In this document: one piece after another, positions 28,171-35,916 of the stretch
Numbering within the stretch: the first letter of the stretch is position 1
Layout of the letters: each line of letters begins with the position of its first letter
DNA from: Alloactinosynnema sp. L-07
GTDB lineage: Bacteria; Actinomycetota; Actinomycetes; Mycobacteriales; Pseudonocardiaceae
Assembly (NCBI RefSeq): GCF_900070365.1
Contig: NZ_LN850107.1
Span: 3,100,001-3,164,000, forward strand
Reading direction: 5' to 3'
Length of the DNA: 64,000 nt
Program-made: the position numbers and the translations under genes
The notes under the pieces: generated by a model
Seen by the model: only the letters and a program-made list of their open reading frames with translations
Told to the model about the DNA's origin: nothing
The model's database searches: none

Positions 28171-29187
28171 TCAGACGCCGCCCTCGGGTCGGGTGCTGAA
28201 CGCGGCGTCGAAAGACGTGGTCGGCGGATCGAACACGAGGTTCCGGACGAACGCGACGGCCTCCTGCGCGCCGCGGAGTCGGTCCATGCCCGCGTCCTCC
28301 CACTCCACCGAGATCGGTCCGGCGTAGCCGATGGCGTTCAGCGCGCGGAAGCAGTCCTCCCATGGCACGTCGCCGTGGCCGGTCGAGACGAAGTCCCAGC
28401 CGCGGCGGGGGTGGCCCCAGGGCAGGTGGGAGCCAAGGCGTCCGCCGCGGCCGTCGAAGCGCTTGCGGGTGTCCTTGCAGTCGACGTGGTAGATCCGGTC
28501 GGCGAAATCGAGGATGAAGCCGACCGGGTCGAGGTCCTGCCAGACGAAGTGCGACGGGTCCCAGTTCAGGCCGAAGGCGGGGCGGTTGTCCACCGCGTCC
28601 AGGGTGCGTTTCGTGGTCCAGAAGTCGTAGGCGATCTCCGACGGGTGGACCTCGTGGGCGAAGCGCACGCCGACCTCGTCGAACACGTCGAGGATCGGGT
28701 TCCACCGACGCGCGAAGTCCGCGTAGCCGTCCTCGATCACCGATTCGGGCACCGGTGGGAACATCGCCACGTACTTCCAGATCTTCGACCCGGTGAACCC
28801 GACGACGGTGTCCACGCCGAGTTCGGCCGCCGCCCGCGCCGCGTCGGCCATGTCGGCGGCGGCCCGCTGCCGAACGCCCTCCGGCTCGCCGTCGCCCCAA
28901 ACGCGGGCGGGCAGGATGGCCTGGTGGCGGAAGTCGATCGGGTCGTCGCAGATCGCCTGGCCGACGAGGTGGTTGGAGATGGCGAAGACCTTCAGGCCGT
29001 GCCGGTCGAGCTGGGCGAGCTTGGCCTCGACGTACCCGTCCTCGGCGACGGCGCGGTCGACCTCGAAGTGGTCACCGGAGCAGGCGATCTCCACCCCGTC
29101 ATAGCCCCACTTCGCCGCGAGCGCGCACACCTCGTCGAAGGGCAGGTCGGCCCACTGGCCGGAGAACAGGGTGATCGGGCGGCTCAT
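28171..29187 (-). CDS. Sugar phosphate isomerase/epimerase (TIM barrel)
   Basis: 338 residues of the AP-endonuclease-2-like TIM-barrel family. Likely metal-site residues are in [30 protein letters not shown] and [10 protein letters not shown], the pattern of sugar isomerases and epimerases such as those acting on inosose or related polyols. It is the last gene of the ebo-type operon and overlaps the upstream phosphodiesterase gene by four bases (ATGA). Because the operon starts with inositol-3-phosphate synthase, an inositol-derived substrate is plausible but inferred. Confidence 0.85.
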
Positions 29188-30587
29188 CGAACCAGCTCCT
29201 TCGCGGAGAGTCCTTGCAGGTCGAGCAGGAGGTCACGGACGTCGGTGGCGGCGATGCGGCCGTCGCGTTCGACGGCGGCGGGCACGGCCGGGTCGGAACA
29301 CAGCAGGACCGGGCCCTCGTCGGCGGAGTCGGGCAGCCTGCCGTGGGTGCCGCGCACGACGGACGGGTCCAGCGGCACGACCTTCATCGTGTACCGGAGG
29401 CCGAGCTTCTTGCGCGCGAGCGTCAGCCCCGCTTTGGCCTTGGCGAGCGGGTCGGCCGGGTCGAAGAACAGCTCGGCCGGGTCGTAGCCGGGCTTGCGGT
29501 GGATGTCGACGCCTCGGGCGAAGTCCGGCGCGCGGTCGTTGTCGGTCCAGTAGTAGTAGGTGAACCAGGCGTCCGGCTCGGCGACGGCGACCAGTTCGCC
29601 GGACCGCTCATGGTCGAGTCCGACGCTCGCCTGGGCCGCGCGGTCGAAGACGGTGTCCACGCCGGGCAGCTTGTCCAGGATCGCCTTCACCCGCGGCACG
29701 TCGGCCGGGTCGGCCACGTAGACGTGCGCGAGTTGGTGGTCGGCGACGGCGAAGGCGCGCGAGGTCCACGGGTCGAGGTACTCCATGCCCGCCTGCGTGT
29801 AGACCTCCAGCAGACCTTCGGCACGCAGCGCGCGGTTGATGTCGACCGGCCTGCGCGCCTCGGTGATCCCGTACTCAGACAAGGCGACCACCGTGGCGCC
29901 CGCGGACGAAGCGTCACCGAGCAGCGGGGCGATCGCGGCGTCGACGTCGCGCGCGGCGGCGACGGCCTGGGCGGAGTCCGGACCGAACCGTTGCAGGTCG
30001 TAGTCCAGGTGCGGGACGTAGACCAGCAGCAGGTCAGGACGCTGGTCGGCGAGGATCTGCCGGGCCGCGCCGACGATCCACCGGCTCGACCCGATCGACG
30101 CCGTCGGCCCCCAGTACTGGAACAGCGGGAACGCGCCGAGCGACCCGGTGAGCCGGTCGTGCAGCTCGGGTGGGCGGACGTAGCAGTCCGGCGACTTGCG
30201 CCCGTCGGCGTGGTAGATCGGGCGCGGGGTGACCGTGATGTCGGTCGAGGCGCCCATCGCGTACCACCAGCAGACGTTCGCCGCGGTGTAGCCGGGGTGC
30301 GCGCGGCGGGCGGTCTCCCACACCTTCTCCCCCGCCACCAGCGCGTTGTGCTGGCGCCACAGGTGCACCTCGCCGAGGTCGCGGAAGTACCATCCGTTGC
30401 CGACGATCCCGTGCTCGGCGGGGGTGCGGCCGGTGAGCAGGGTCGACTGCACGCTGCAGGTGACGGCGGGCAGCACGGTGCCGAGTTCGGCCTGCCAGCC
30501 CTGGGCGCCGATGCGGGCCAGGTTCGGCATGTGCGCCAGCAGCCGGGGCGTCATCCCGACGACATCGATGACCACCAAGGGCTTCAT
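29184..30587 (-). CDS. eboF: Alkaline phosphatase / nucleotide pyrophosphatase family protein (EboF-like)
   Basis: 467 residues. The N-terminal [13 protein letters not shown] gives the first metal ligand, and [19 protein letters not shown] carries the nucleophile Thr/Ser region and TG-xP-xxHGI signature of type I phosphodiesterases. Further ligands appear in [14 protein letters not shown] and [10 protein letters not shown]. No signal peptide is seen, so it acts inside the cell. Proteins of this class are EboF in ebo clusters, where the substrate is unknown. ATG 30587 overlaps the EboE gene stop; a longer frame to 30821 runs into that gene. Confidence 0.83.
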
Positions 30588-31681
30588 ACGGCCGCTCCCA
30601 GGCTCATGGCCGCCCAGCGCAGCTCCGCGGCGATGCCCGAGGACAGCGACGCCTGATCGAATCCGGGCAGGACCGACCAGGTGTAGGTCTCGACCTCGAC
30701 GTGCGGCAGCACCGCCACAGTGGACCGCAGCGCCGCCATGGCGGCAAGCAGGACATCGGTGGTCGAGGTGAGCGGCGCGGGCGGAGCGGCGTGCAGGGGG
30801 ACATGGAAATGGACCCGCCACGGATGCGCGGCGGGCAGGGTGTCGAACGCGTCGGGCAGGTCGTCGGCGGGGAGGACGCCGACCGGGGTGTTCTCCCGAA
30901 CCTGGTGCAGGTAGCGGGGTTCGGCGAACGCGGCGAGCGCGGCCCTGGCCTCGGCGGTGCCCGGTTCGGCGACCTCCAGGGCCGCCGACGCCTGCACCTT
31001 GACCACCGACAGCCCGGCCCGGTGGATCGCCGACACGGTGTCGGCCGGGTCGGCGAAGGACACCGCGAGGTGGCAGGTGTCCAGGCAGATCCCCACGTAG
31101 TCCGGGTCGACGTGCCCGGCCAGCCAGGCCACGGCGTCGGCCACGGTGTCGAGCACGCAGCCCGGCTCCGGTTCGACCGCGAGCCGGATCGGCCGGTCCG
31201 ACGCCGACCGCACCACCTGGGTGATCTTGTCGAACGCTCGCCGCGCCCGCGCGTCATCCTCGGCGGTCCACGGTTCGCGCCAGGCCAGCGGTAGCGTCGA
31301 GATGCTGCCGTAGGCCGCGGAGTCCGGCAGCAGGTCGGCGAGCACGGTCGCGCAGTCGGCCGTATAGGCCACGCGCTCGCGGTCGGCCCAGGTCGGCAGA
31401 TAGACGGCGTGTTTGACGACGTCGTCGTGGAAGCCGCCGTAGGGGAACGCGTTGAGGGTGCTGACCGTCAGCCCGCGAGCGTCGAGTTCGGCCCGCAGCC
31501 CGTGCCGGGCGGTGGCGTCCGCCGCCAGCGCGCGGGCGACGGGCGCCGACAGCCACAGGCCGAGCGCGAGCGTGTCGACCGCCAGTTCCTCGCGGACGGC
31601 GACGGCGTAGCGGTCGAGCTGGGCGACGATCCCGGCGAGGTCCTCGGCCGGGTGGACGTTGGTGCAGTAGGCCGGGATCAC
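30584..31681 (-). CDS. eboE: Metabolite traffic protein EboE (TIM barrel)
   Basis: 365 residues. Begins YCTNVHPAEDLAGIVAQLDRYA, the distinct start of EboE, and continues with LNAFPYGGFHDDVVKHAVYLPTW-type and AVEPEPGCVLDT and CLDTCHLAVSF blocks, where Glu, Asp and His would bind metal. In cyanobacteria the ebo genes are needed to move a scytonemin precursor to the periplasm; elsewhere they accompany other natural products. The start is GTG at 31681, which overlaps the TatD-like gene stop (GTGA). I am confident in the family, not in the substrate. Confidence 0.85.
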   Translation of the reverse strand: MIPAYCTNVHPAEDLAGIVAQLDRYAVAVREELAVDTLALGLWLSAPVARALAADATARHGLRAELDARGLTVSTLNAFPYGGFHDDVVKHAVYLPTWADRERVAYTADCATVLADLLPDSAAYGSISTLPLAWREPWTAEDDARARRAFDKITQVVRSASDRPIRLAVEPEPGCVLDTVADAVAWLAGHVDPDYVGICLDTCHLAVSFADPADTVSAIHRAGLSVVKVQASAALEVAEPGTAEARAALAAFAEPRYLHQVRENTPVGVLPADDLPDAFDTLPAAHPWRVHFHVPLHAAPPAPLTSTTDVLLAAMAALRSTVAVLPHVEVETYTWSVLPGFDQASLSSGIAAELRWAAMSLGAAV

Positions 31682-32532
31682 GCGCGCTCACCGCGCAGCA
31701 CCGAGTTGCCCGCGAACGTCTCGGCCGCATCGGGCGCGTCGTCGAGCACCAACCGCCCGCTCTGCCCGTAGAATTCCACTGGGTTGCGCCACAGCACGGT
31801 GTCCACATCGGACTCGGTGAAGCCCGCGGCGAGCATCGCCAAGCCGGTTTTGTGTGTCTTGAGCGGGTCGGAGCGACCCCAGTCGGCCGCGGAGTTCACC
31901 AGCACCCGCTCGGTGCCGTACTCCTTGAGGATCGCGACCATCCGCGTCTCGTCCATCTTGGTGTCCGGGTAGACCGAGAAACCCATCCAGCACCCGGCTT
32001 CGGCGACCGCGCGCACGGTCAGCTCGTTGAGGTGGTCCACCACGACGCGCTCGGCGGGCAGGCCCGACTCGGCGACCAGGTCGAGCGTGCGCCGCGTGCC
32101 CGCCGTCTTGTCCCGGTGCGGGGTGTGCACCAGCGCGGGCAGGCCGTGCTCGACGGCCATCTCCAACTGCCTTGCGAACGCGTGGTCCTCTTCCGGCGTC
32201 ATCGAGTCGAAGCCGATCTCGCCGACCGCGACCACACCGTCCTTGGCGAGGTAGCGCGGGAGCAGGTCGAGCACGCCGACACAGCGCGGATCGTTGGCCT
32301 CCTTGGGGTTCAGCGCGATCGCGCAGTGGTGCCGGATGCCGAACTGGGCCGCCCGGAACCGCTCCCAGCCGATGAGCGCGTCGAAGTAGTCGGTGAACGA
32401 GCCCACCGACGTGCGGGGCTGGCCGAGCCAGAACGCGGGCTCGACGAGCGCGCGGACCCCCGCGGCGTACATCGCCTCGTAGTCGTCGGTGGTGCGGGAG
32501 GTCATGTGGATGTGGGGATCGAAGATGCGCAT
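31678..32532 (-). CDS. eboB: TatD-like metal-dependent hydrolase (EboB)
   Basis: 284 residues of the amidohydrolase TIM-barrel type. FDPHIHMTSRTTDDY holds the HxH metal pair, VGEIGFDS the carboxylate, LVHTPHRDK and VVDHLNE further histidines, and VLVNSAADWGRSDPLKTHK the final Asp. This is the EboB subgroup rather than DNA-processing TatD. ATG 32532 overlaps the upstream stop by one base (TGATG), and the longer open frame to 33066 lies over the preceding gene. Role within the ebo pathway is unknown. Confidence 0.83.
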   Translation of the reverse strand: MRIFDPHIHMTSRTTDDYEAMYAAGVRALVEPAFWLGQPRTSVGSFTDYFDALIGWERFRAAQFGIRHHCAIALNPKEANDPRCVGVLDLLPRYLAKDGVVAVGEIGFDSMTPEEDHAFARQLEMAVEHGLPALVHTPHRDKTAGTRRTLDLVAESGLPAERVVVDHLNELTVRAVAEAGCWMGFSVYPDTKMDETRMVAILKEYGTERVLVNSAADWGRSDPLKTHKTGLAMLAAGFTESDVDTVLWRNPVEFYGQSGRLVLDDAPDAAETFAGNSVLRGERA

Positions 32533-33914
32533 CAGCTCTGGCTCCTCAGCAGGTCGACAGCGTCGTCGGGTACCGTGCGGCCCGCCGCGCGGCGCTCGTC
32601 GGCGAAGGCGCCGACCATCCGCAGCAGCTCGCCGTCCACCCGCCGGTCGAGCCCGGCGACGGCGGCCAGCGGGATCGAGGTGAACAGGCACTTGAGGACG
32701 CCGTGGCGCCATGAGTGCTGGTCGAGGTGGTCGGCGGCGAACGGTCCGAGCGCGGCGGATACGAGGCTGGTGTCGTTGGCGCGCAAGGCGTCCTTGACGA
32801 TCTCCACCCCCGCTTCCGGCGCGATCTCGCCGACCTCGGCGAGCGCGTGCAGCACGCCTCGGCGCTCGGCGTCGTCGCCGTAGCGGTAGAGCGCGGTCAG
32901 CTCCTGGCCGAGCGCGTCGGCCTCGACCGCCGCCGCGTAGACGACCAGCAGCCGGGTCCGGGCCGCGTCGTCGACCTCTCGTCCCACCTCGCGGCCGACC
33001 GCCGGGAACAGCGCGCGGATCGAGTCCGGCGCCGACCGCACCGACCGCTCGGCCGAGACCAGCCACGGATGGTCCATAGTGGACTTTGGCAACGCGGCCC
33101 GCAGCGCCTCGATCGAACGCCGCGCCACGTCCGGGGCGGCATGGCTGTGGCGGGGCAGCTCGACGGCGGCCAGCCCGCGATAGCCGACCTCGGTGAGCGC
33201 GGCCAATGTCGCGGGCAGGTCGAGCACGCCGTCACCGAACTCCAGGTGCTCGTGCACCCCGGGCAGCATGTCGTCCAGCTGGATGTTGACCAGCAGCCCC
33301 GCCGCCTCGCGGATGCACGCCGCGGCGTCCTTCGGCTCGACCGCGACGCAGTGGCCGACGTCGAGGGTGATGCCCAGCAGGTCCGGCGAGCCGAGTTCGG
33401 CCCGCAGCCGCAGCGCGTCGGTGAGCCGCTCGACCAGCATGCCGGGCTCCGGCTCGATGCCCAGCGGCACGCCGTAGCCTGCCGCGCCGTCAAGCACCGC
33501 GCCCACGCCCGCGCGCAGCCGGTCCCACGCCACCTCAGGATCCACAGTGGACGGTCGGATGCCCGACCAGAACGACACGCAGTCCGCGCCGAGCGCCGAG
33601 GCCACCCGCACGGCCCGCAGCAGGAAGTCGACCCGGACGTCCTGTGCCTCGCTGACCAGCGTCGGGTGGTGCTTGCGCCGCGCGTCGAGCAGGTACCGCG
33701 CCCCCGTCTCGACGACCACCCGGAGCCCCAACTGGTCCAGCCGCGCGGCGATCCGGTTGGCCTGGCCTGCGATGTCGTCGGCGAACGGGTCGAGGTGGTG
33801 GTGGTCGAGGGTCAGCGCGACCCCGGTGTAGCCGAGGTCGGCGATCACCGCGAGGGCGTCGTCGAGCCGGTGGTTGGCGAACCCGTTGGTGCCATAGCCG
33901 AGGTCGAAGCTCAT
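32532..33914 (-). CDS. eboA: Fusion of sugar phosphate isomerase/epimerase and EboA domain
   Basis: 460 residues. Residues 1-275 form a TIM barrel of the isomerase/epimerase type (GTNGFANHRLDDALAVIADL, IEPEPGMLVERL, TLDVGHCVAVEP, VELPRHSHAAP). From about 280 an EboA-like helical domain follows (RALFPAVGREVGREVDDAART, LLVVYAAAVEADALGQELT, HSWRHGVLKCLFTSIPLAAV). In cyanobacteria EboA is a separate protein, so this fusion shows directly that the epimerase belongs to the system. ATG 33914 overlaps the EboC gene. A second separate epimerase ends the operon. Confidence 0.82.
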   Translation of the reverse strand: MSFDLGYGTNGFANHRLDDALAVIADLGYTGVALTLDHHHLDPFADDIAGQANRIAARLDQLGLRVVVETGARYLLDARRKHHPTLVSEAQDVRVDFLLRAVRVASALGADCVSFWSGIRPSTVDPEVAWDRLRAGVGAVLDGAAGYGVPLGIEPEPGMLVERLTDALRLRAELGSPDLLGITLDVGHCVAVEPKDAAACIREAAGLLVNIQLDDMLPGVHEHLEFGDGVLDLPATLAALTEVGYRGLAAVELPRHSHAAPDVARRSIEALRAALPKSTMDHPWLVSAERSVRSAPDSIRALFPAVGREVGREVDDAARTRLLVVYAAAVEADALGQELTALYRYGDDAERRGVLHALAEVGEIAPEAGVEIVKDALRANDTSLVSAALGPFAADHLDQHSWRHGVLKCLFTSIPLAAVAGLDRRVDGELLRMVGAFADERRAAGRTVPDDAVDLLRSQS

Positions 33915-34765
33915 GTCGGACTCACCTTCCGGCTCAGCCGCCGCGCCAGCGGCAGCGCCAGCGCGACCACGGCGGCACCGGCCGCCGATCCGGCGCGGGC
34001 GGCCAGCGCTGACTGCAACGGCACCATTCCGTGGATGCCTGCCTTCGTCGCACCGCGGACGGTGGCCGCGCTCGGGTCGACCGCGGCCGCGTACTGCGCC
34101 CGGCCGACCGAGGCGGCGTACCCGGCGGCCGCCACCGCGCCCGCGACCCGGTGGCGCCAGGAGCGCGCCGGTCCGCCGACCGCGGCGAGCGCGGTCAGCA
34201 CCGTGCCGCCGACCGCGGCCCGCGCGACCTCGGGCGATCCGCCGTGAACCTCACCGCGCGACAAGGCGGTCACGGCGAAGGTGTGGGCCGCCATGGCCGT
34301 CGCCGCGGGCAGGGCCGACGCGGCCCGGGCACGGCCTGCGCCGAGCAGCACATCGAGCCCACGGCAGGCCGCCATCGCGGCGGGCCCGGCCGGGGTGGAC
34401 TTGAGAACGGTGTCGTAGGACCAGATCGCACCCGCCAGCAAGACCGCGACGCGCGCCGAGTCCCGGCCGCCCGCCCACGCCGCGATGCCCAGACCCGCGG
34501 CGGTGAGCGCCGTGGCCGTTGCCAACGCCGCGCCCGGGCTGACCCGGCCGGACGGGATGGGCCGCTCGGGGCGTTCGGTCGCGTCGAGTCCGCGGTCGGA
34601 CCAGTCGTTGAGCGCCATCCCGGACCAGTACAGCGCCACCGACGCCAGCGGCAGCAACAGTCGCCTGCCGGTGAGCGGTCGACCGCTCACGGCGGCTCCC
34701 GCGACGGTGTCGCCCAGCACGGTCAGCGCGGCGGGCGCGCGGACAAGTTCGAGGTAGGGGTTCAT
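33911..34765 (-). CDS. eboC: UbiA-like prenyltransferase EboC
   Basis: 284 residues with about eight membrane segments. The Asp-rich motif after the second segment, ALNDWSDRGLDATERPERP, is the Mg-diphosphate site of UbiA prenyltransferases. A second Asp-rich site is less clear (SYDTVLKSTPAGPA), as is normal for the EboC group. It would transfer a prenyl or similar lipid group to a polar acceptor at the membrane. ATG 34765 overlaps the inositol synthase stop (ATGA). Confidence 0.84.
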   Translation of the reverse strand: MNPYLELVRAPAALTVLGDTVAGAAVSGRPLTGRRLLLPLASVALYWSGMALNDWSDRGLDATERPERPIPSGRVSPGAALATATALTAAGLGIAAWAGGRDSARVAVLLAGAIWSYDTVLKSTPAGPAAMAACRGLDVLLGAGRARAASALPAATAMAAHTFAVTALSRGEVHGGSPEVARAAVGGTVLTALAAVGGPARSWRHRVAGAVAAAGYAASVGRAQYAAAVDPSAATVRGATKAGIHGMVPLQSALAARAGSAAGAAVVALALPLARRLSRKVSPT

Positions 34766-35916
34766 GCGCGCAACTCCCCCGCCCACCGGTACAGCTCGCG
34801 GGTCTGCTCGGCGAAGCGGTGTTCGTCGGATCCCAACGGGTCCTTGAAGAAGACCGCCAGCGAGCCCAGCGGACCGGACTGGCCGTCGGCGTGCGCGGCG
34901 GCGACCAGCCGGGCCAGGTCCAGCACCAGCGGAGCCGCCAGCGAAGAGTCCAGGCCGGTCCAGGTGAACTGCAGGGTCATCCGAGCGCCGAGGAACCCCT
35001 CGAACGAGACGTGGTCCCAGGCCGTTTTCTGCTCGCCCAGGTCCGGCACGTTGTCGATGTGCAGCGGCGCGACGACGTCGTGGCCGAGCAGCGCGGCCAG
35101 GCCGCGGGCCTTGGACTCCAGCTTGCTGCCCGCCCGGTCGGGATCCTGCAGGGTCGCGCCGTCGCCGCCGCCGAGCAGGTTGGTGCCCGCCCACGAGCGG
35201 ACGCGCAGGGCGCGGGCGGTGAACATGGGCGCCAGGACCGTGCGCAGCAGGGTCTCCCCCGTCTTGCCGTCCCGGCCCGCGTACGGCAGAGCCAGCTCAC
35301 GGGCCAGCTGGTCCAGCACAGGCAGGGCGATACCGGTCGACGGCGTGAAGTCGACGAAGGAGCAGCCCGCCCGCAGTGCGGCGTACGCGGAAAGCGAACT
35401 GGCAGGCAGGACCGCTCGGCCCGGGTCGGCCATGGCCGCTTCCAGGGCGGCGAGGTCGCCGTGCTCGGGGACGAACGGCGCGGGCGGCTCGGTCGAGGAC
35501 ACGTTGACCACCACGACCCGCGCCAACCCGTGCCGGTCGCGGAACCCGGCGATGTCGTCGACCATCCGCCGCGCCGCGTCGGCCTGGCTGCCCTGGTGGG
35601 TCACCGGGTGGTAGCCGTCGCGGATCTCGGTGTCGACCGCGCGCAGACCAGGCACGATGTGACTGAGCAGGTGGTGCGGCAGCACGCCCGCCTGCGCCAG
35701 CGGCTCGGCGCACTTCTCCAGCGGCGTCGCCACCACGTCGTGCCCGCCGACGACGAGGTCCTCCCAGGCCGGTAACGGAACCTCGGCGAACTCGGGTCTC
35801 TGCGTGACACACCCGGTCGGCGGCGCGAGGCCCGCCCGCAGCGCGAGCAGCCCGCTGACCGCGGTGGTCGCGACCGACCCCCGGGCCCCGATGAGCCACA
35901 GCCCAGTGCGTGTCAT
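34762..35916 (-). CDS. ino1: Inositol-3-phosphate synthase family protein
   Basis: 384 residues. N-terminal Rossmann motif LIGARGSVATTAVSGL, then SSTEPPAPF, FVDFTPSTGIALPVL, YAGRDGKTGETLLRTVLAPM and SWAGTNLLGGGDGATL, all characteristic of myo-inositol-1(3)-phosphate synthase, including the Lys-containing GKTG loop. It converts glucose-6-phosphate to inositol-3-phosphate with NAD. Being the first gene of the ebo-type operon and coupled to EboC, it is probably dedicated to a secondary product and takes the place that the sugar phosphate cyclase EboD has in cyanobacterial clusters (inference). GGGAGG precedes ATG 35916. Confidence 0.87.
   Translation of the reverse strand: MTRTGLWLIGARGSVATTAVSGLLALRAGLAPPTGCVTQRPEFAEVPLPAWEDLVVGGHDVVATPLEKCAEPLAQAGVLPHHLLSHIVPGLRAVDTEIRDGYHPVTHQGSQADAARRMVDDIAGFRDRHGLARVVVVNVSSTEPPAPFVPEHGDLAALEAAMADPGRAVLPASSLSAYAALRAGCSFVDFTPSTGIALPVLDQLARELALPYAGRDGKTGETLLRTVLAPMFTARALRVRSWAGTNLLGGGDGATLQDPDRAGSKLESKARGLAALLGHDVVAPLHIDNVPDLGEQKTAWDHVSFEGFLGARMTLQFTWTGLDSSLAAPLVLDLARLVAAAHADGQSGPLGSLAVFFKDPLGSDEHRFAEQTRELYRWAGELRA

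Follow-up and report, generated by a model that had tools for sequence, protein, structure and literature searches.

The ebo cluster, eboABCDEF, has been described from eustigmatophyte plastids, Bacteroidetes and Cyanobacteria (PMC5133447; PMC6282210). In cyanobacteria its genes are required for completing the sunscreen pigment. The sections of these papers on which we draw propose an isoprenoid-cyclitol product of EboD and EboC (PMC5133447), as well as metabolite translocation and a cyclitol-headed lipid carrier (PMC6282210), and an EboA fusion in Actinobacteria was noted there in 2016 (PMC5133447). Here we describe a seven-gene operon within a 64,000 nt stretch of the Alloactinosynnema sp. 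L-07 genome (contig NZ_LN850107.1, positions 3,100,001 to 3,164,000; hereafter the window, to whose positions coordinates refer). Judged by profile matches and comparison of loci, this operon, which begins with a myo-inositol-phosphate synthase gene (ino1), is a real, conserved and dedicated variant of the ebo cluster, largely actinobacterial. These comparisons support an earlier, sequence-only reading of the locus as an ebo-type operon headed by Ino1 in the role of EboD. Like eboABCDEF, it holds EboA, EboB, EboC-like, EboE and EboF-like proteins in a tight operon; it differs in carrying Ino1 for EboD, in an extra epimerase-like domain (Epi1) fused to EboA, and in its gene order (Ino1-C-Epi1/A-B-E-F).

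A second described relative is the pair SCO3242/SCO3243 of Streptomyces coelicolor. A transferase, of the same prenyltransferase family as the EboC-like protein, and a myo-inositol phosphate synthase are annotated there under adjacent locus numbers, although the part of the source used lists them among the genes of the calcium-dependent antibiotic (CDA; PMC3610822). No description of an exchange of EboD for Ino1 was found in the literature searched, although the variant is visible in annotation; nor did we find "EboA" and "inositol" as whole words in one paper, and the word "inositol" is absent from the main texts of PMC5133447, PMC6282210 and PMC9235831.

The operon and its profile matches

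The operon consists of seven open reading frames (ORFs), all on the minus strand, running from 35916 to 28171 in the order ino1, eboC-like, epi1::eboA, eboB, eboE, eboF-like, epi2:

34762..35916, minus strand: ino1(ebo), myo-inositol-phosphate synthase, 384 amino acids (aa), first gene; PF07994 (164 bits, cut-off 25) and PF01658 (106 bits, cut-off 27), both domains passing; closest solved relative 1u1i; active-site columns
33911..34765, minus strand: eboC-like, UbiA-superfamily prenyltransferase of the SCO3242 family, 284 aa; PF01040 (58 bits, cut-off 34.2), NF045897 (371 bits, cut-off 260); aspartate motif
32532..33914, minus strand: epi1::eboA fusion, 460 aa; PF01261 at residues 22-273, NF035938 at residues 315-455; AlphaFold2 model
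33084..33914, minus strand: Epi1 domain, part of epi1::eboA, ketose-3-epimerase-like TIM barrel
32550..32972, minus strand: EboA domain, helical repeat in the predicted model; NF035938 (149.5 bits, cut-off 50), fused behind the PF01261 barrel
31678..32532, minus strand: eboB, TatD/amidohydrolase-like metal-dependent hydrolase, 284 aa from ATG 32532; PF01026 (49 bits, cut-off 27); TGATG junction
30584..31681, minus strand: eboE, TIM-barrel protein, 365 aa; NF035939 (421 bits, cut-off 250)
29184..30587, minus strand: eboF-like, type I phosphodiesterase/nucleotide pyrophosphatase, 467 aa; PF01663 (214.5 bits, cut-off 23)
28171..29187, minus strand: epi2, accessory, TIM barrel related to 2-hydroxy-3-keto-glucal hydratase, 338 aa; PF01261 (155 bits, cut-off 31.1); 2zds (E 4.5e-172), 8ro4 (E 1.9e-41)

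The operon-type clustering described for ebo genes (PMC5133447) is found here at six of six junctions, as read from the genes alone, with the overlaps of one to four bases that the sequence-only reading had reported. Five are of 4 bases; the sixth, the TGATG between Epi1::EboA and EboB, is of 1 base if EboB starts at ATG 32532, a start that we read from the junction letters, the ORF program output having given a CTG start. The GC content of third codon positions (GC3) is 0.90-0.94 across all seven genes. The EboA and EboE assignments, on which that reading depended, held in profile searches, with the EboA domain and EboE both above their cut-offs; the full-length EboA_family model NF035937 gave the fusion protein just 53.9 bits against a cut-off of 320. 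EboB aligns with EboB of EboD-type clusters. In searches of NCBIfam, no ebo-specific model matched EboB, and no ebo- or EboF-specific model matched the EboF-like protein. All three aspartates of the NDxxDxxxD motif of EboC are present in 98 of 100 aligned rows, the remaining two rows being gapped. As for EboD, the genome has a single PF01761 match, at 3.24 Mb and thus some 108 kb from the operon. Because there is no EboD in the operon, we file it as a variant and not among the canonical ABCDEF clusters.

Ino1 and EboD replace each other

Our phylum sample comprised 396 genomes, 19 with an EboE match and 18 with one over the cut-off. Of these 18, 17 have an Ino1 no more than 6 kb from an EboE, and in none do Ino1 and EboD both stand there: the 18th genome (G381) has a dehydroquinate-synthase-family gene (EboD) 1.7 kb from EboE, its sole Ino1 match being on another contig. 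Genome G128 carries a second EboE copy without an adjoining Ino1. The genome excluded from the 18 (G279) has a split EboE, below the cut-off, with no Ino1 alongside; its two-piece EboE (locus L160) lies within a run of EboA, EboB and EboF matches.

A set of 80 named loci, the best 80 of 213 and fetched by EboE, gives a similar picture, with Ino1 in 65 and EboD in none. Three of the 15 loci lacking Ino1 (L029, L032 and L078) end at contig edges, and the other 12 are uncut. In two loci that lack Ino1, the Lentzea locus L012 (5711-7028) and L181, the gene immediately preceding EboC encodes the binding protein of a sugar ABC importer; this gene is present in 10 loci, six of them without Ino1. Lentzea nigeriaca has two copies of the cluster, one with Ino1 (L020) and one without (L014). 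EboD-type loci were viewed mainly through plasmids. None of the 11 inspected, which are G381 and 10 plasmid loci of Roseobacteraceae, Azospirillum, Mycetohabitans, Deinococcus, Gloeothece and Aureibacter, has Ino1, and no plasmid record appears both among the 16 that match EboD (E≤1e-40) and among the 44 that have an Ino1 relative (E≤1e-5). By gene content, Ino1 and EboD stand in for one another in clusters that are otherwise homologous.

It is likely that there was more than one exchange of the cyclitol synthase, since the Ino1/EboD labels require at least two changes on a quick tree of EboE and at least three on one of EboB. Gemmatirosa (Gemmatimonadota) has Ino1, yet the trees place its EboE and EboB alongside those of EboD-type clusters, and this placement suggests an independent exchange there.

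The operon Ino1 belongs to a dedicated clade

Ino1 might instead be a general inositol supply gene, serving mycothiol, phosphatidylinositol or osmolyte synthesis, that stands in the operon by chance. We consider this very improbable. A PF01658 search of the genome found two Ino1 genes, which rules out the operon Ino1 as the only inositol synthase of the genome, a condition under which the sequence-only reading would have fallen. The second gene, at G000:C1:5770492 (about 5.77 Mb), scores 692.6 bits on the mycothiol-Ino1 model TIGR03450 and so passes its cut-off of 638, against 28.1 bits for the operon Ino1. A second Ino1 is likewise present in 15 of the 17 Ino1-type genomes of the phylum sample; the other two, G268 and G318 (82% complete), carry the ebo Ino1 only and are what speaks for a general supply role. 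In a quick tree of 54 rows, with 34 ebo rows picked from 87 and 12 of the 14 housekeeping rows found, all 34 actinobacterial ebo-Ino1 rows form one clade (Shimodaira-Hasegawa-like approximate likelihood ratio test, SH-aLRT, 98) and the 12 housekeeping rows another, remote from it, with very long branches between. This separate clade is tied to ebo genes across classes. Given the clade and the second, mycothiol-type gene, we reject the operon Ino1 as the housekeeping enzyme.

The closest solved relative of the operon Ino1 by sequence is 1u1i, an Ino1 presumably from Archaeoglobus fulgidus. The two belong to the same family and align at the active-site lysines and aspartate, whose roles we take to be those generally assumed for Ino1; the window protein differs in sitting in an ebo operon. 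Chains 3qvw and 3qvx each have alanine at one of the active-site lysines. Eight active-site columns are invariant in all 87 bacterial ebo-Ino1 rows and in all three haloarchaeal rows. As far as alignments and trees can tell, the ebo Ino1 forms a dedicated clade, and its active-site residues are intact. The best database relatives of the operon Ino1 are named as Actinokineospora. EboE occurs in 3 of the 16 genomes of the genus, the source genome included, and the operon is therefore accessory.

Composition of the variant

All seven core segments (Ino1, EboC, Epi1, EboA, EboB, EboE and EboF) stand in the same order on one strand in 61 of the 80 named loci, a recurrence beyond what chance would give. 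Taken singly, EboC and Epi1 are each found in 75, EboA in 78 (79 at a laxer 60-bit limit), EboB and EboF each in 77, and Epi2 in 43. The sequence-only reading had counted two added TIM-barrel epimerases. Of these, Epi1 belongs to the Ino1 variant, whereas Epi2 is not part of the ebo core. Nor do the barrels appear to be equal additions, since Epi1 is modelled as a ketose-3-epimerase-like barrel and Epi2 resembles 2-hydroxy-3-keto-glucal hydratase. Epi1 and EboA share a single open frame in 51 of 74 judgeable loci and are separate in 23. The AlphaFold2 model of the fusion has a mean per-residue confidence (pLDDT) of 96.3 and a predicted template-modelling score (pTM) of 0.73; its EboA part (residues 279-460) is predicted to be a helical repeat (pLDDT 97), for which Foldseek gave no match at E≤0.001.

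Among haloarchaeal plasmids, three of five Ino1 records were examined, and all three join Ino1 with EboB-, EboC-, EboF- and Epi1-like genes:

L170-L172: haloarchaeal sets, on plasmids of Halobaculum, Natronococcus and Halocatena

These sets differ from the window operon in that EboA and EboE gave no match in the three records by tblastn, and in that the genes are divergent in two of the three; two Halobaculum barrels reach 19.9 and 22.0 bits on the EboE model, whose cut-off is 250. The haloarchaeal Ino1 groups with the actinobacterial ebo clade (SH-aLRT 87). Thus, by sequence likeness, a cyclitol synthase, a UbiA prenyltransferase, a TatD-like hydrolase, a phosphodiesterase and a xylose-isomerase-like barrel appear to be common to the EboD-type, actinobacterial and haloarchaeal sets.

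A different inositol cluster was seen on plasmids of Methylobacterium (L173), Roseomonas (L174) and Hymenobacter (L175), where Ino1 relatives accompany a Gfo/Idh/MocA gene and an Epi1-like epimerase; the two annotated records among these also have a YcaO-like gene.

A proposed cyclitol-based product

We lean, with modest confidence, towards the view that Ino1 has displaced EboD as the cyclitol supplier, and that the product of the operon is a small cyclitol-based molecule, probably prenylated. We infer its product and its role in transport along the following lines. Ino1 would cyclise glucose-6-phosphate to inositol phosphate, as the counterpart of EboD, which would use another sugar phosphate. 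Epi1, EboE, EboB and EboF, with their isomerase, hydrolase and phosphodiesterase folds, could then modify or dephosphorylate the cyclitol, and EboC would add an isoprenoid tail in the membrane. EboA may be a helical scaffold or effector acting with the isomerase that is fused to it here, and Epi2 may be a recruited 3-keto-sugar enzyme. The product would be a cyclitol-headed, probably prenylated molecule, serving as a carrier, a membrane component or an end product. The sequence-only reading had likewise pointed to a prenylated or lipid-linked inositol-derived product. EboC and Ino1 together are consistent with this, and the prenyl part is weakened by the Herbidospora loci and the aromatic acceptors of EboC relatives described below.

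Two unrelated enzymes that would each make a cyclitol from a sugar phosphate share one slot in otherwise homologous operons. This shared slot provides independent evidence for a cyclitol as part of the ebo product, and the exchange of EboD and Ino1 therefore gives independent support to the cyclitol half of the isoprenoid-cyclitol idea. The product question also becomes directly testable, because labelled inositol can be given to laboratory streptomycetes and its fate followed, and because EboD and Ino1 can each be put in the other's place. If our preferred reading is correct, the same chemistry would span cyanobacteria, algal plastids, antibiotic-producing actinobacteria and haloarchaea.

Several points weigh against this reading. 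The EboC-like protein reaches 158 bits on the EboC equivalog model, below the cut-off of 250. Assayed EboC relatives farnesylated quinoline-type aromatics, with 6 of 14 aromatic acceptors giving product, and no cyclitol was seen among the acceptors tried in the sections of the paper that we used (PMC9235831). Herbidospora mini-clusters (L074, L082 and L084) have Ino1, EboA, EboB and EboE, and no EboC, Epi1 or EboF match within the locus; prenylation may therefore not be obligatory. Ebo genes occur without Ino1 in the 12 uncut loci (six of Lentzea, three of Streptomyces, one each of Actinomadura and Sphaerisporangium, and one metagenome-assembled genome), and isolated EboE genes occur as well. 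Support for the nesting of Gemmatirosa among EboD rows on the EboE tree (SH-aLRT 81) is under the 95 mark. The phylum sample holds one EboD case, such that exclusivity there rests mostly on Ino1 cases, and other phyla were viewed through plasmid records only. The association with sugar-oxidation genes described in the next section fits a catabolic reading equally. Lastly, we found no assay of any enzyme of the Ino1 variant.

Epi2 and sugar-oxidation neighbours

Epi2 aligns nearly end to end with 2zds (residues 1-332 of 338), and over residues 17-327 with 8ro4, a 2-hydroxy-3-keto-glucal hydratase and its best functionally named solved relative; on these alignments it is probably not an inositol epimerase, its solved relatives suggesting 3-keto-sugar chemistry instead. 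The entry 2zds, which we take to be from S. coelicolor, is titled "Putative DNA-binding protein", though Epi2 is a xylose-isomerase-like barrel by Pfam.

Besides Epi2, the neighbours found in the 80 loci are a ThuA/GSDH-type protein (GSDH, glucose-sorbosone-dehydrogenase) in 48, a further barrel in 35, a Gfo/Idh/MocA dehydrogenase in 32 and a sugar ABC importer ATPase in 24. The twin-arginine translocation (Tat) signal of the further barrel and, from its N-terminus, the secretion of the ThuA/GSDH protein were judged by eye. Ten of the 18 genomes have GSDH no further than 10 kb from EboE, where 0.29 would be expected from GSDH number and genome size; none of 2,000,000 simulations reached 10, with kinship uncorrected and the ten genomes representing four families. 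The source genome is outside those ten, its nearest GSDH match being about 970 kb away. In one congener (G396) ThuA-GSDH stands before ino1, and in another (G409) a sugar importer stands there. Six regions of family f5 (L145, L148-L152) have ThuA and GSDH matches ahead of ino1 on the same strand; the rows of this family cluster with those of Streptomyces plasmids. The Gfo/Idh neighbour resembles levoglucosan dehydrogenase, at 363.6 bits and below the cut-off of 650. The query used matched no Gfo/Idh/MocA gene within the 20 kb surrounding the window operon.

These neighbours could indicate a glycoside 3-oxidation/beta-elimination route, in which the barrels, phosphodiesterase and hydrolase would process imported sugars or glycosides, Ino1 would feed or drain the route, and lipid chemistry would be secondary. 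The hydratase match of Epi2 points this way, as does the recurrence of the levoglucosan-dehydrogenase-like Gfo/Idh/MocA gene, the importer, ThuA and the further barrel. Moreover, the sections of PMC10628242 that we used describe a breakdown of glycosides that proceeds by oxidation, elimination, hydration and reduction and uses similar genes, in operons that pair two oxidoreductases with two "sugar phosphate isomerases". However, several loci have the ebo core with none of these neighbours detected (e.g. L054, L055 and L142), the window core is accompanied only by Epi2 among them, and the described route has no place for a UbiA prenyltransferase or an inositol synthase. We regard a glycoside route as unlikely, albeit the strongest of the alternatives.

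Pigment and polyketide partners in relatives

In two Streptomyces plasmids (S. camelliae and Streptomyces NBC_00663), a ScyD/ScyE-family gene lies directly upstream of the ebo Ino1:

L138:3182-4384 and L168:3924-5123: ScyD/ScyE-family genes, with a multicopper oxidase gene downstream

By tblastn, such a gene was found in 1 of 82 loci, the query's own. In the Streptomyces AMCC400023 plasmid (L169), the whole Ino1-ebo operon lies inside an annotated aromatic polyketide cluster, with annotated aromatase/cyclase and tailoring genes; a sister Streptomyces plasmid (L139) has a polyketide cluster with a lone eboE and annotated type II ketosynthase genes. These ScyD/ScyE-family and polyketide neighbours are what might be expected if the ebo genes formed a module that exports or matures a metabolite, aromatic or otherwise, whose synthesis takes place elsewhere in the genome, as has been proposed for scytonemin; the cyclitol would then be just a tool. 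Around the window operon there is no such partner: a SulP-type permease gene lies divergently upstream and an FMN-reductase-like (FMN, flavin mononucleotide) gene downstream, and no biosynthetic cluster or secreted dehydrogenase is found among the eight neighbouring ORFs scanned, about 5 kb on each side. Nor does a recurrent transporter accompany the core throughout. We rate an export module as a little less probable again than the glycoside route. Over those eight ORFs, the result accords with the sequence-only reading, which saw no adjacent polyketide or peptide gene. Its view that product and partner are unknown stays true for the window, but in relatives the operon adjoins ThuA/GSDH genes, ScyE-family genes or a type II polyketide cluster.

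A broader idea, which we hold to be improbable, is that all ebo operons, with whichever cyclitol synthase, supply extracytoplasmic oxidoreductases, many of them beta-propellers, with a membrane cofactor or carrier that is prenylated and derived from a cyclitol. It draws on the neighbours: ScyE, the actinobacterial ThuA-GSDH, and the annotated pyrroloquinoline quinone (PQQ)-type dehydrogenases of Salipiger and Natronococcus. Nostoc ebo mutants, like a scyE deletion, make no scytonemin and accumulate the monomer, according to the sections of PMC6282210 that we used; if the idea were true, these mutants would be missing a partner of ScyE. The same sections weaken it, in that the monomer is confined to the cytoplasm in ebo mutants and is also in the periplasm in the scyE deletion (PMC6282210).

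Further oxidoreductase neighbours are scattered among the relatives. The Natronococcus set adjoins an annotated PQQ-dependent sugar dehydrogenase and an importer, and that of Halocatena adjoins ThuA and an importer. Two of 19 genomes have a PqqC match that passes the cut-off. Among the 10 EboD-type plasmid loci, one has an annotated PQQ-dependent dehydrogenase, which is under the model cut-offs, and the EboD-type cluster of Mycetohabitans (L165) lies near a LodA/GoxA-type oxidase gene.

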